This document shows, piece by piece, positions 1,036 through 38,664 of a stretch of 64,000 nucleotides of DNA. Under the pieces are notes generated by a model. That model was not told where the DNA came from. It was given only the letters and a program-made list of their open reading frames with translations, and made no database searches. Positions within the stretch are counted from its first letter, which is position 1. Each line of letters opens with the position of its first letter. Source of the DNA: Alphaproteobacteria bacterium (GTDB taxonomy: Bacteria; Pseudomonadota; Alphaproteobacteria; Sphingomonadales; Emcibacteraceae). The DNA lies in assembly GCA_030428615.1 (NCBI GenBank), contig JAUIDN010000013.1, forward strand, positions 1 through 64,000. The letters are read 5' to 3'. Position numbers and translations under genes: made by a program.

Positions 1036-2142
1036 TTAAAGTTTTGCCAGAATTTTATCAGCAATTTCGATATAGGCTTTGGTGAGCGGGCTGGATTCCT
1101 GACTGACGACAATGGGGTTTCCATCGTCTGCCGTCTTCCTAATATCCATATCAAGCGGGATGGCCCCTAAAAAATCCATTCCTTTTTCATCGGCCGTTAA
1201 ATGGGCGCCGCCGTGGCTGAAAATATCGCTTCGTTCACCGCAGTGCGGGCAAATAAAGTAACTCATATTCTCAATAATGCCCAGAACCCGGGTATTGGTT
1301 TTATCGAACATGGTAATGGCTTTTCGTGCATCAATAAGTGCTAAGTCTTGTGGTGTTGAAACGATAACTGCACCATCCAGTTTTATGTTCTGGACCATCG
1401 TAAGCTGCGCGTCCCCGGTTCCCGGCGGTAGATCAAGAACAAGAACATCAATCGATCCGAATAAATCCCATTTTACATCACGGAGCATTTGTTGGATTGC
1501 GCCCATTACCATCGGGCCGCGCCAAATGGTTGCTGCGTCCTTCTCCATCAGATAGCCGATCGACATGCTTACAAGCCCGTGATTTTGCAGTGGTGTAATT
1601 TTCCCGTCACCCAGGCTTTCAGGTCTTGCATCCGGTAATCCCATCAGGCGCGGAATACTTGGCCCATATATGTCGAGATCGAAAATTCCCGCTTTAAGGC
1701 CCAATTTGCTAAAGGCAAGTGCCAGGTTTATGGATGTCGTCGATTTTCCAACCCCGCCTTTACCGCTTGCAACGGCGATAACATGTTTAACGCCTGGAAT
1801 GCCGCCTGGTCCTTCCTGCGGTGGTGGTGTGCCGTGACCGCCGAAGGCCCGCTTCTCACCAAAACCTTTTGGTGCCGGTTCGTCTGTGCCGTCCCGTTCA
1901 GCGGTCAGAACCGATGTCACTTTTGAGATACCGGAAATTTGCAGGAGAAGCCGATCGCAACTTTGGCGCAGTTTTTCCATTTCCTCTACTTCCGACGGAT
2001 CTATATTGAGCGCGAAACCTACGGCACCTTCCCTGACCACCAAGCCCTGCACGATACCCTGATCAACAATATTATTACCTGTTTTTGGATGTTTAATAGT
2101 TTTTAGGGCTTCAAGAAGCTCTTCGCGCTTGACGTCTGACAT
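1036..2142 (-). CDS. mrp: Mrp/ApbC family iron-sulfur cluster carrier ATPase
   Basis: This is a cytosolic P-loop ATPase of the Mrp/NBP35 group, which binds and transfers Fe-S clusters to apoproteins. It has an N-terminal DUF59/MIP18-like domain (about residues 1-90), a Pro/Gly-rich linker, then a MinD-like ATPase domain with the deviant Walker A SGKGGVGKST. A C-terminal CPHC pair is the expected cluster-binding site. The chosen start is the ATG at 2142 (MSDVKREELL), giving 368 aa. An upstream in-frame ATG at 2178 would add 12 polar residues that homologues do not have. It is divergent from hflK. Confidence 0.93.
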   Translation of the reverse strand: MSDVKREELLEALKTIKHPKTGNNIVDQGIVQGLVVREGAVGFALNIDPSEVEEMEKLRQSCDRLLLQISGISKVTSVLTAERDGTDEPAPKGFGEKRAFGGHGTPPPQEGPGGIPGVKHVIAVASGKGGVGKSTTSINLALAFSKLGLKAGIFDLDIYGPSIPRLMGLPDARPESLGDGKITPLQNHGLVSMSIGYLMEKDAATIWRGPMVMGAIQQMLRDVKWDLFGSIDVLVLDLPPGTGDAQLTMVQNIKLDGAVIVSTPQDLALIDARKAITMFDKTNTRVLGIIENMSYFICPHCGERSDIFSHGGAHLTADEKGMDFLGAIPLDMDIRKTADDGNPIVVSQESSPLTKAYIEIADKILAKL

Positions 2143-15652: not shown

Positions 15653-15829
15653 GCCGTCTGGGCAAAGAAGTCTTACATATGAGGTGCGGGTACTGTTTCG
15701 TTGGTGTCTTACTTTATCCCCGGGGCGTTAATTCTCCAACGGGAGCTGCCTCTGATAGGATCGTGGTCTTATTATCGCGGTGCCCACCTATACGTATTAG
15801 GTTCTGGAGGATAAAAAAACAGATACGGC
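15653..15829 (+). ncRNA. ssrS: 6S RNA (ssrS)
   Basis: A 177-base segment folds into one long imperfect rod. GCCGTCTG (15653-15660) pairs with CAGATACGGC (15820-15829) with a small bulge, and GAGGTGCGGGTAC pairs with GTGCCCACCT on the other side, enclosing a large internal loop. This is the expected 6S RNA shape; 6S RNA binds RNA polymerase holoenzyme and mimics an open promoter. Position is the strongest support: it sits directly before fau and near zapA, the conserved proteobacterial zapA-ssrS-fau order. Exact ends are estimated from the terminal stem. Confidence 0.75.
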
Positions 15830-15868
15830 GAAATGGTCCCGCACTTTGTTAAATCATAAAGAATAGTA

Positions 15869-35178: not shown

Positions 35179-35714
35179 TGAAACCGAGAAATTTTCTTAA
35201 ATTTCTTATAATCATTAGTGCATTGTGCGTGGCAAATATCAGCCACGCACATCGCTTTTACGCCTCATTCTCACAAATTGAAATGCAACCTGCCAAGGGT
35301 ACGATAGAAATTACCCACCGGATTTTCACACACGATATCGAAGACCTTCTAAGGCGGTATCAGGACAGTAGTGGTGAATTGACGGAAGATGTTATTGAGG
35401 CATTCCTGAAAGACTATATTATTCAGGCATTCGCACTGTATTCACCAGACGGCGAAATGCTGCCGCTGGACTGGATAGCGATTGAAGTGACACTTGATAA
35501 TATATTTGTCTATCAGGAAGCTCCCATGCAGGAAGGTCAGCAGACGTTAATCATTGCGGACCGAATCTTACATGACCTTTTTGATGACCAAAGCAACACG
35601 GTGAATGTGAAATTGGAAGGAAAAATCAAAAGCCATACATTTCAGAAAGGCGATAAAATGTACCAGATTTCCTTTGACGGGCGCACCGGTGACTACCCTT
35701 TTGAGCCTTCATAA
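35178..35714 (+). CDS. DUF6702 family periplasmic protein
   Basis: A 178-aa protein with a signal peptide ending SHAH, followed by a beta-rich domain: HRFYASFSQIEMQ, IEITHRIFTHDIEDLL and a C-terminal strand run. This is the DUF6702 pattern. The GTG start shares its first base with the TAG stop of the M1 peptidase gene, so the two are coupled. The function is unknown; a role as partner or substrate-handling factor of the peptidase is inference. It is followed by the serC promoter. Confidence 0.75.
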   Translation: MKPRNFLKFLIIISALCVANISHAHRFYASFSQIEMQPAKGTIEITHRIFTHDIEDLLRRYQDSSGELTEDVIEAFLKDYIIQAFALYSPDGEMLPLDWIAIEVTLDNIFVYQEAPMQEGQQTLIIADRILHDLFDDQSNTVNVKLEGKIKSHTFQKGDKMYQISFDGRTGDYPFEPS

Positions 35715-35734: not shown

Positions 35735-35762
35735 TTGACATTTGAAAATTCTTCTCTATATT
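35735..35762 (+). promoter_or_regulatory. sigma-70-type promoter of serC
   Basis: A consensus -35 TTGACA (35735-35740) and near-consensus -10 TATATT (35757-35762) are separated by 16 bases. The expected start is at 35769-35770, the first bases of the serC leader. It is the best-matching promoter I can see in the window. Confidence 0.75.
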
Positions 35763-35768
35763 CCGCCG

Positions 35769-35824
35769 TGGGCTATCCCTCCCCAACGGGGGACAGCTAT
35801 TCTGGAAGGAATAGGAGAAAATTG
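35769..35824 (+). promoter_or_regulatory. serC RNA motif (structured leader)
   Basis: The 5' leader holds two hairpins: one closed around CCTCCCC AAC GGGGG (about 35771-35798), and a second, ATTC...GAAT (about 35799-35812), immediately before the AGGAG ribosome site (35813-35817). This arrangement, position and host group match the serC motif described ahead of serC in alphaproteobacteria, whose ligand or mechanism is unknown. I judge it from the fold and context, not from a covariance search. Confidence 0.6.
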
Positions 35825-36979
35825 ATGTTACCAGAAAAGAAACCAGCGTCACCGCTGTTTTCGTCAGGACCCTGCGCAAAGCGCCCGGGTTGGACGATAA
35901 AGAATTTAGAAAATGCCCCGCTTGGGCGTTCTCACAGAGCCGCAATCGGCAAATCCCGACTCAAAGAAGCTATTGATAAAACGCATGAACTGCTTGAACT
36001 GCCGCAGGATTACCTAGTCGGTATCGTCCCGGGTTCGGACACTGGTGCCGTCGAAATGGCCCTTTGGTCACTTCTTGGCCAACGTGGTGTTGATATGCTG
36101 GCGTGGGAAAGTTTTGGAAGCGGTTGGATTACGGATGTAACCAAGCAGCTTAAACTTGATGACGTGCGAACACTGGAAGCACCTTACGGTCAGCTTCCTG
36201 ACTTCTCCATGATTGATCCCGCTCGTGATGTGGTCTTTACATGGAACGGAACAACATCGGGCGTTAAAGTGCCAAATGGTGACTGGATACCGGATAACCG
36301 CGCGGGCCTCACCATTTGTGATGCAACATCAGCGGCGTTTGCAATGGATCTGCCGTGGCATAAATTGGATGTTGCGACATTCTCATGGCAGAAGGTCATG
36401 GGCGGCGAAGGCGCGCATGGTATTCTGATCTTATCCCCGCGCGCCGTAGAACGGCTCGAAAGTTATACCCCCCCTTGGCCTTTGCCAAAGATTTTCCGCC
36501 TCACAAAAAGCGGTAAATTGATCGACGGTATATTTACCGGCGCGACCATCAATACCCCTTCCATGCTTTGTGTAGAAGATTATATTGATACCCTGAGTTG
36601 GGGCGCGAAGGTTGGCGGGCTTAAAGGGCTGATAAAACGATCTGAAGATAACCTTGCCGTGCTTAGAAACTGGGTAGAGAAAACGGATTGGGTTGATTTT
36701 CTGGCGGAAGACCCGAATACGGTTTCAAATACATCTGTTTGTCTGAAAATAACAGCACCATGGTTTCAGAATCTCACAGATGAGGATAAAGCCGCTGCTG
36801 CCAAAAAGCTTGCAACGCTTTTGGATGAGCAGGCCGTTGCCTATGATATTGGATCATACCGTGATGCGCCGGCGGGCCTGAGAATTTGGGCGGGTTCCAC
36901 AATAGAAACAGATGATCTTCGCGACCTTACACCGTGGCTCGACTGGGCTTACGGCGAAGTGCGCAAAATCTATAACTAA
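35825..36979 (+). CDS. serC: phosphoserine aminotransferase
   Basis: A 384-aa PLP enzyme converting 3-phosphohydroxypyruvate and glutamate to phosphoserine. It belongs to the alphaproteobacterial/archaeal-type SerC ([12 protein letters not shown] start; [13 protein letters not shown]; the PLP lysine in [14 protein letters not shown]). ATG at 35825 follows AGGAG by 7 bases. The frame is open back to 35735, but that part is the promoter and RNA leader and is not translated. serA follows after 39 bases. Confidence 0.95.
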
Positions 36980-37018: not shown

Positions 37019-38596
37019 ATGGTTAAGGTACTTATTTCTGATAAATTAAGCCCGCTTGCCAAAGAAATTTTTGAGCGTCGTGGCATTGAAACCGACCAAA
37101 TAGTAGGTCTGAGCAAAGAAGAACTTGAAGAAAAAATTCACGAATATGACGGCCTTGCAATACGGTCCGCAACCAAGGTATCGCCGAAAATTTTAGCGGC
37201 TGCGAAAAATCTGAAAGTGGTGGGTCGCGCTGGAATCGGTGTGGATAATGTTGATATCCCCGCGGCAACCAGTCAGGGTGTTGTTGTTATGAATACGCCT
37301 TTTGGTAACAGCATAACGACAGCGGAACACGCGATTGCCATGATGTTTGCCGTTGCGCGTCAAATTCCGCAGGCAAGCGCATCTACCCATGAAGGAAAAT
37401 GGGAGAAATCAAAATTTATGGGTGTCGAACTGACATCGAAAACACTTGGCATCATTGGTTGTGGCAATATAGGGGCGATCGCAGCGAGCCGCGCCATTGG
37501 CCTTAAAATGAAGGTGATTGCATTTGACCCGTTTCTTTCCGAGGAACGTGCCGAAGAAATTGGTGTTGAGAAAGTTGAACTTGACAATTTGCTGGCCCGT
37601 GCTGATTTCATTTCCCTGCATACCCCGCTTACGGACGCGACACGGGGCATTCTTGGTAAAGATGCTTTTGCTAAAATGAAAGATGGCGTGAGAATAGTCA
37701 ATTGTGCCCGTGGCGGCCTTATTGATGAAACAGCATTAAAGGACGCATTGGACAGCGGCAAAGTTGCCGGTGCGGCGCTTGATGTTTTTGAAGTCGAGCC
37801 AGCAACGGAAAATATTCTCTTTGGCAATGAAAAAGTGGTGGCGACACCTCATCTTGGTGCTTCTACTTCTGAAGCACAGGTAAATGTGGCCGTTCAGGTT
37901 GCGGAGCAAATGGCCGACTATCTTTTGGATGGTGCTGTTACGAACGCCCTTAACATGCCAAGCCTGACGGCGGAAGAATCAAAACGTCTTAGCCCGTATA
38001 TTGCGCTTGTCGGTCAACTTGGAAGCTTTGTGGGTCAACTTACTGAAGAAGCCGTGAAAGAAATCCATATTGAATATCAGGGTGATGTGATTGACCTTAA
38101 CGTTCGCCCGCTTACGGCGATTGTCGTGCAGGGATTACTGAGTCCGCTCATGGATAATGTAAATATGGTGAATGCCCTTAGTATTGCAAAAGAGCGCGAT
38201 ATAGATGTGATTGAAAGCAAGAACGAAGGAGAAGGCGACTATCATACGCTCGTGAGTGTGAAGGTTGTGACAGAGGGCGGAGAATTCGAAGCCAAAGGCA
38301 CACTTTTCGCTGACCGCCGTCCGCGGATCGTTCAGGTTGATGATATTCGGCTGGAAGGTGAACTCACGGAAAATATGATCTTTGCCACCAATGACGACCA
38401 GCCCGGTTTTATCGGTTCTCTGGGAACAATTCTTGGCGAAGGCGGTCTGAATATTGCGACTTTTAACCTTGGTCGCCATCATGAGGGGGGGCGTGCAATT
38501 GCGCTTGTTGCTGTCGATCATGCCCCATCCGCAGATGTAATTGCGAAAATTGGAACGCTTGATAAGGTACGTCGGGTTAAGTCGCTCACATTTTAA
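37019..38596 (+). CDS. serA: D-3-phosphoglycerate dehydrogenase
   Basis: The first enzyme of serine synthesis, 525 aa, long form. N-terminal substrate and NAD domains show VVGRAGIGVDNVDIPAAT, GIIGCGNIGAIAASRA and the catalytic ARGGLIDETAL. They are followed by the allosteric substrate-binding domain (about 320-450) and a C-terminal ACT domain (MIFATNDDQPGFIGSLGT). ATG at 37019 is preceded by AAAGG; an in-frame TTG at 37004 is rejected. It forms a unit with serC and ends at a strong terminator. Confidence 0.96.
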   Translation: MVKVLISDKLSPLAKEIFERRGIETDQIVGLSKEELEEKIHEYDGLAIRSATKVSPKILAAAKNLKVVGRAGIGVDNVDIPAATSQGVVVMNTPFGNSITTAEHAIAMMFAVARQIPQASASTHEGKWEKSKFMGVELTSKTLGIIGCGNIGAIAASRAIGLKMKVIAFDPFLSEERAEEIGVEKVELDNLLARADFISLHTPLTDATRGILGKDAFAKMKDGVRIVNCARGGLIDETALKDALDSGKVAGAALDVFEVEPATENILFGNEKVVATPHLGASTSEAQVNVAVQVAEQMADYLLDGAVTNALNMPSLTAEESKRLSPYIALVGQLGSFVGQLTEEAVKEIHIEYQGDVIDLNVRPLTAIVVQGLLSPLMDNVNMVNALSIAKERDIDVIESKNEGEGDYHTLVSVKVVTEGGEFEAKGTLFADRRPRIVQVDDIRLEGELTENMIFATNDDQPGFIGSLGTILGEGGLNIATFNLGRHHEGGRAIALVAVDHAPSADVIAKIGTLDKVRRVKSLTF

Positions 38597-38632: not shown

Positions 38633-38664
38633 AGGGAGGGTATTTTTTACCCTCCCTTTTTTGT
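38633..38664 (+). terminator. intrinsic terminator after serA
   Basis: AGGGAGGGTA (38633-38642) pairs perfectly with TACCCTCCCT (38648-38657) around a short T loop and is followed by a T-run. It closes the serC-serA transcript. Confidence 0.93.

Follow-up and report, generated by a model that had tools for sequence, protein, structure and literature searches.

The serC-serA locus and its leader

The window considered here, that is, the whole stretch of 64,000 nucleotides that was analysed, contains a serC gene followed by serA, and the hairpin and T run found downstream of serA probably form the end of this serC-serA unit (Table 1). The upstream neighbour is a DUF6702 gene with its stop codon at 35714, and a promoter and a leader lie between it and serC. 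Among the relatives listed, from which the window's own or very close genomes may be absent, the nearest SerC sequences come from metagenome genomes of Emcibacteraceae and Kordiimonadaceae, with 88% identity at best; the DNA is thus probably that of an Emcibacteraceae-like alphaproteobacterium. A reading frame of 414 amino acids opening with the TTG at 35735 was considered as the true serC start and rejected, as it crosses both the promoter and the leader. Elsewhere in the window, at 15687-15843 (+), there is a 6S RNA match (RF00013) of 49.7 bits, barely over the cut-off of 46.4.

Table 1. Positions of the serC-serA unit, its promoter and the elements of its leader in the window
Feature	Position	Strand	Basis
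-35 element, TTGACA	35735-35740	+	consensus scan; TTG element at -39 to -35 of GGG in 181/187 leaders
-10 element, TATATT, after a 16-base spacer	35757-35762	+	consensus scan
Predicted start of transcription at the leading G of GGG (alternative purine, 35768)	35770	+	promoter spacing; preceding pyrimidine in 187/187
S1 5' strand of the proposed pseudoknot, GGG	35770-35772	+	third-pair covariation in tandem copies; Devosia
L1, CTA, with A35775 opposite C35794	35773-35775	+	A opposite C in 178/186 parsed leaders
S2 (hairpin 1) 5' strand, TCCCTC	35776-35781	+	Rfam alignment, fold
S1 3' strand, CCC in hairpin 1 loop	35782-35784	+	leader parse
L3, AAC	35785-35787	+	AAC in 151/186, ACC in 33/186 leaders
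S2 (hairpin 1) 3' strand, GGGGGA	35788-35793	+	Rfam alignment, fold
Hairpin 2 of seven pairs, with a GGAA loop (GNRA type) at 35804-35807	35797-35814	+	CUGNRAGG core in 179/187 leaders
AAGGA inside hairpin 2, ribosome-site position of most relatives	35806-35810	+	15 bases between AGG and ATG
AGGAG, outer 3' edge of hairpin 2	35813-35817	+	7 bases before ATG
serC, phosphoserine transaminase (TIGR01365 type)	35825-36979	+	668.4 bits, cut-off 448.2
serA, phosphoglycerate dehydrogenase	37019-38596	+	TIGR01327, 668 bits, cut-off 454
Intrinsic-terminator-like hairpin, then T run	38633-38657	+	

The promoter named in the original prediction, TTGACA-N16-TATATT at 35735-35762, is indeed present and agrees with the consensus in 11 of 12 bases, which makes it the top of 14 promoter-like sites between 34500 and 39500 (shuffled versions of this region hold 7.8 such sites on average, with a standard deviation of 2.6). 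Sites with at least 11 of 12 bases occur three times in the 64-kb window and 0-4 times in eight first-order Markov sequences; a match of this quality is within chance, and we dropped the significance of the promoter match taken alone. What places the promoter beyond chance is its fixed position before the GGG, rather than its match score. Namely, in the window the GGG lies 35 bases from the first T of TTGACA, and in 171 of 187 aligned leaders TTGAC, TTGAT, TTGC or TTGT begins at -36 or -35, counted from the leading G of the triplet. The six leaders outside the wider range given in Table 1 come from a single family; five carry an extra upstream leader copy, and in L078 none was recognised. This register predicts a start at 35770 (range 35768-35770), in agreement with the 35769-35770 proposed earlier. 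The base before the GGG is C or T throughout, which fits a start at the first G, and for which pairing of this base with the A of L3 is another possible reason. The base after the GGG varies (C in 61, A in 27 and T in 12 per cent of the 187 leaders).

As for the leader itself, it had been assigned to the serC motif, and the covariance search (cmscan) bears this out: RF00517 scores 46.9 bits at 35766-35819, the gathering cut-off being 35, with an E-value of 3.1e-7 for the window. The assignment was to be given up if such a match were missing and the start were mapped elsewhere; the match exists. Along with this score, the leader has an adjoining near-consensus promoter and serC-serA downstream, and its final hairpin, with a GGAA loop, ends at 35814, leaving 10 bases (limit 11 nt) before the ATG at 35825. 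As claimed, hairpin 2 reaches the ribosome site, covering the first two bases of AGGAG. Both hairpins of what had been described as a two-hairpin leader are present, but the leader probably exceeds two hairpins, given that the triplet at its predicted start is able to pair with the hairpin 1 loop.

In its sequence, two stems, adjoining promoter, GNRA hairpin over the ribosome site and serC-serA genes, the leader is the same as the serC motif RF00517 of Corbino et al. 2005. Since the same arrangement was published there, the finding in this window is a correct re-discovery: the earlier observation is real and was correctly read, the leader is an ordinary further member of RF00517, and for this window alone the outcome is the ordinary annotation of a serC leader and its promoter. 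What comparison with relatives adds is sequence evidence suggesting that the first transcribed triplet belongs to the fold, together with double leaders in tandem and lineages that lack hairpin 2.

The conserved core and its dedication to serC

Searches with the Rfam leader gave matches in 63 of 299 genomes of the phylum, 31 of 40 of the order, 115 of 385 of the class and 27 of 29 of one family, these sets being overlapping. From the phylum, order and class searches 183 loci were examined and 181 kept, after exclusion of L184 (25.3 bits, no core, probably a false match) and L091 (unreadable at a contig end); a duplicate (L066) and the repeats of L060 and L061 (L088 and L089) were excluded from the counts, and the leader-bearing genomes G366, G508, G536, G559, G660 and G683 of the class search were left out of the locus-level analysis. 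The 181 include L085 and also L112, whose S2 is bulged. With seven cores added that precede serC genes for which Rfam gave no match (7 of 47 examined), and less the one duplicate, the aligned set comprises 187 distinct stretches, aligned on the GGG.

These leaders share a rigid core, consisting of GGG, three bases, six bases, CCC, three bases and again six bases that are complementary to the former six. It occurs with S2 pairing in 181 of 183 Rfam-derived leader loci (three imperfect); of the 179 loci parsed first, 177 have it in full and the other two form five of six pairs. L1 is mostly NCA and L3 is AAC or ACC. Judging from the sequence, the core can pair as a classical H-type pseudoknot does, GGG:CCC forming S1 and hairpin 1 forming S2, and loops of three bases are sterically usual in pseudoknots. 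Unlike this proposal, the Rfam structure of RF00517 has no pairing drawn for the GGG. What is more, the third base of L1 stands opposite the base after S2', and in the parsed leaders outside the A-C majority given in Table 1 the two are G-U in five, G-C in two and U-C in one, these replacements coming from few lineages; since A.C and G.U wobbles are similar in shape, the opposition may be a seventh S2 pair. In L324 and L328 both bases are A.

Both strands of S1 are invariant in ordinary Rfam-derived leaders and, because our parser moreover required GGG and CCC, these loci are no test of S1. A single leader of Devosia geojensis (L318, about 1429-1481) does differ, with AGG:CCU in place of GGG:CCC and the rest intact; its promoter lies 36 bases upstream and its Rfam score is 40.4 bits. 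Among 80 named SerC loci, 70 have GGG:CCC and a perfect S2, one (L302) has GGG:CCC but an imperfect S2, one has the AGG:CCU, seven are without the core and one (L262) is without usable upstream sequence. Cores other than GGG were also sought across the class by a pattern with H at the first S1 base and, 28-34 bases further upstream, TTGA. Of its 37 matches, which come from 34 of 385 genomes, 30 were examined and yielded no further case; we do not take them for leaders because none has six S2 pairs (the best has five, with the first S1 base unpaired). An energy fold of the window RNA, by a program that cannot score pseudoknots, favoured an unknotted extension of hairpin 1 that draws on part of the GGG and on the foot of hairpin 2, at -16.7 kcal/mol.

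The core is found before one gene only. Namely, R1, a covariance model built on the 27 bases of the core and searched against the class genomes at E up to 0.01, gave 111 matches in 385 genomes, one per genome and all just before serC, with no other gene under the core in any of them (102 were placed by the loci examined, six by SerC positions and three by further loci); this number is a lower bound, because the window's own genome misses the E-limit under strict filters. In 210 of 210 loci, some of them near-identical, SerC follows the leader on the same strand at an offset of 39-98. With an E limit of 0.001, a SerC model has matches in 304 of the 385 genomes of the class, 264 of them above the cut-off, and of the leader matches found there under strict filters 111 are above the cut-off; the serC leader is common yet far from universal in the class. 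A common promoter region resembling TTGACGC...TGCAGCA was noted in the leaderless serC loci L187, L195 and L228. A SerC of alphaproteobacterial type, 65-69% identical to that of the window, was seen in three Opitutales-type records (L266, L297 and L321; Pelagicoccus, Opitutaceae and Puniceicoccaceae), with no leader found upstream of these three genes, and horizontal transfer is a possible origin.

Tandem leaders and lineages lacking hairpin 2

Within the order of the window, the family f75, whose leaders are identical or near-identical to those in records named Kordiimonas, Pseudokordiimonas and Eilatimonas, has a second leader copy 51-56 bases upstream of the ordinary one (95 in two loci). 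It was seen in 24 of the 26 loci of this family; L234 is cut by a contig end, and L078 shows none. Among Kordiimonadaceae loci, tandem complete serC leaders before one serC are present in L064 (about 1400-1560), L065, L069, L084, L086 and most of L233-L252. By eye, a short open reading frame in L064 could begin after the first copy and finish at the serC start. We parsed 27 upstream copies (20 from f75 and seven from named records, some identical), and since all 27 have TTGA or TTGT 34-36 bases before their own S1, the promoter belongs to the first tandem copy. The downstream, internal copies keep the full consensus.

Covariation was analysed in 12 distinct upstream copies of equal length, after exclusion of L086, L249, L250, L251 and L265 for their deviating lengths of loop or stem. 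At the third S1 pair, three of the 12 carry C-G, two G-C, two U-A, one A-U and four C.A, that is, eight Watson-Crick pairs against 3.2 expected (permutation, 0.0005), a value that, like the other covariation numbers given here, overstates independence, because the tandem sequences are related, stem mainly from one family and reflect few events. When S1 and S2 are taken as one structure, none of 500 shuffles came up to the observed covariation score or to the observed share of paired cells, four reached the number of pairs changed on both sides and ten that of pair types. With the partners slid by 1-3 columns, the covariation score dropped from 0.248 to 0.079 or less, and paired cells likewise made up a smaller share than without sliding. 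The optional fourth S1 position is U-A in five copies and C.A in seven; the first two S1 pairs do not vary and hence give no covariation evidence. In other words, the 5' strand is complementary to the loop, as in an H-type pseudoknot, and the compensatory changes come from the third S1 pair only; a conserved, covarying fold is found beyond the expression platform.

The CUGNRAGG of hairpin 2 recurs in 19 of 21 distinct upstream tandem copies. A potential start codon stands 3-12 bases after their GG in nine of the 21, and seven of these nine are TTG overlapping the GGG of the next copy. Because the GNRA-GG element is kept in upstream copies without a regular start codon, a role beyond the ribosome site is suggested. 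Other lineages keep the core without hairpin 2, so the read-out through this hairpin is not universal. In particular, L063, L183, L198, L216, L221 and Nisaea L279 have a core with NCG in L1 and no recognisable hairpin 2, and show a plain AAGG 8-9 bases past the core. Rfam scores are 22-29 bits for L063, L182, L183, L216 and L279 and 32.1 for L191 (cut-off 35), and for L194, L198, L199, L215 and L221 no Rfam match is listed up to an E of 1. Near the Nisaea serC, at 1080-1150 (-) of L279, lies an sRNA of the mmgR/suhB type (RF00519, 47 bits).

In most relatives the ribosome site is the AGG inside hairpin 2, with a spacing to the first ATG or GTG that is most commonly 9-10 bases, against 15 in the window. 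The Emcibacteraceae-type leaders, that of the window included, differ from RF00517 in that the AGGAG at the outer edge of hairpin 2 is the better-placed ribosome site, and also in an L1 that is mostly CTA instead of NCA (L080 has CCA). The AGGAG arrangement occurs as well in L081, L082, L085, L087 and L256-L261. In L324 and L328, hairpin 2 is without a GNRA loop and the ribosome site is a GGAG outside the hairpin.

A possible mode of control and its alternatives

The serC motif, described in 2005, is a long-standing orphan riboswitch candidate. According to the serC passages of Corbino et al. 2005 (PMC1273637), near-consensus promoters stand directly upstream of every example, the motif has two stems, the final one a GNRA-loop hairpin that would mask the ribosome site, and in-line probing of the Agrobacterium tumefaciens serC RNA gave no effect with serine, threonine or PLP, nor with pyridoxal, pyridoxine, pyridoxamine or 4-pyridoxic acid; a protein was also proposed there as the binder. 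We dropped the claim that the RNA probed (-46 to +11) was without the GGG, the Sinorhizobium meliloti GGG being exactly at -46. In the relevant parts of other reports, serC is listed without an assigned ligand (PMC3766115), a transcript upstream of serCA is given for Rhizobium etli (PMC2881028), and RF00517 is among detected or predicted RNAs, with no usable start site (PMC2873474, PMC5596092); the corresponding parts of PMC2573895, PMC2245857, PMC2211319 and PMC5770649 hold nothing further on the serC leader. Our search of the literature on the motif, the leader and RF00517 found neither a ligand nor a mapped start, and a search on riboswitches in Kordiimonas found no reports. Greenlee et al. 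2018, as cited in the part of a 2020 review concerned with it, described additional conserved sequence and structure for serC; the pseudoknot may already be included in that update, and we leave priority unclaimed.

We consider it probable that the RF00517 leader controls the serC-serA mRNA in cis, with the pseudoknot as sensor and hairpin 2 as read-out. Transcription would begin at the GGG, or at most two bases from it, and the GGG would fold onto the CCC of the hairpin 1 loop to give a small H-type pseudoknot (three S1 pairs, or four if a U precedes, six S2 pairs, and loops of three and three), placed directly upstream of the GNRA hairpin that would mask the ribosome site. A signal of sufficient serine, or of a pathway intermediate, would then stabilise the pseudoknot and hairpin 2, and less serC initiation would follow; in leaders without hairpin 2, the knot itself would be near enough to the ribosome site to act. 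On family-wide grounds only, a small metabolite is more likely to be this signal than a protein. Comparison supports the core, the promoter register, the one covarying S1 pair and the dedication to serC, and we infer the formation of the knot, the role of hairpin 2 as its read-out, the direction of control and the nature of the signal. For the family at large, the balance of evidence favours a serC sensor that is an H-type pseudoknot anchored at the start site, in which the first triplet would be part of the fold, the A-C opposition would extend S2, hairpin 2 would be a replaceable read-out, lost in several lineages, and the Kordiimonadaceae would carry tandem sensors.

Would the same observations follow if the leader were a protein-binding site, with SerC or a dedicated regulator sensing serine status and gating the ribosome site much like PyrR? 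Dedication to one operon, in 111 of 111 core matches among 385 genomes, is a trait of autogenous protein leaders, and the metabolites tested failed, a protein being proposed by the authors too (serC passage of PMC1273637). However, many genomes have this type of SerC and no leader (SerC in 304 of 385, the leader in 115), and the SerC genes of the three Opitutales-type records are leaderless, and we regard this explanation as rather unlikely. A pseudoknot at the 5' terminus could also act mainly in protecting the mRNA, by slowing pyrophosphate removal and decay, with sensing secondary, if any. This would account for a predicted start that, in single leaders and upstream tandem copies alike, falls on the first base to pair, a coincidence that an aptamer does not need; yet the internal tandem copies, which are not 5'-terminal, keep the full consensus, and hairpin 2 is left unexplained, such that we deem mRNA protection improbable as the main role.

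Somewhat more doubtful still is a passive hairpin that merely sets a fixed level of translation. Hairpin 2 does overlap the ribosome site, and no signal has been reported, but this leaves aside that sequences remote from this site (GGG, NCA, CCC, A[AC]C and the A-C opposition of hairpin 1) hardly vary, and that upstream tandem copies without a regular start codon retain CUGNRAGG (19 of 21). Finally, nucleotide sensing through slippage of RNA polymerase is known at pyrG, and the predicted start at a run of three G would invite the same idea for serC. The base after the GGG is variable, however, and GGG slippage is impossible with the AGG of Devosia and the UGG or CGG of 21 of 27 upstream tandem copies, which makes this idea very hard to credit.

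If, as we favour, the first bases are in the fold of a cis-acting sensor, constructs for ligand tests must begin exactly at the GGG and be evaluated against GGG/CCC mutants. Natural test RNAs in which sensor and read-out come apart are provided by the tandem copies and by lineages that have no hairpin 2. In preQ1-I and SAM-II the 3' tail pairs with the loop, whereas the serC knot would use the extreme 5' end of the transcript. In their compactness, with one stem and a pseudoknot, SAM-II, as treated in the relevant part of PMC1273637, and the 34-nt preQ1-I motif, as treated in that of PMC7266159, are otherwise like the core proposed here. The Kordiimonadaceae serC leaders, with two complete units in series, resemble the tandem riboswitches discussed in PMC9481103, whose passage on serC concerns this gene under a pair of a glycine riboswitch and a T-box rather than tandem serC motifs.
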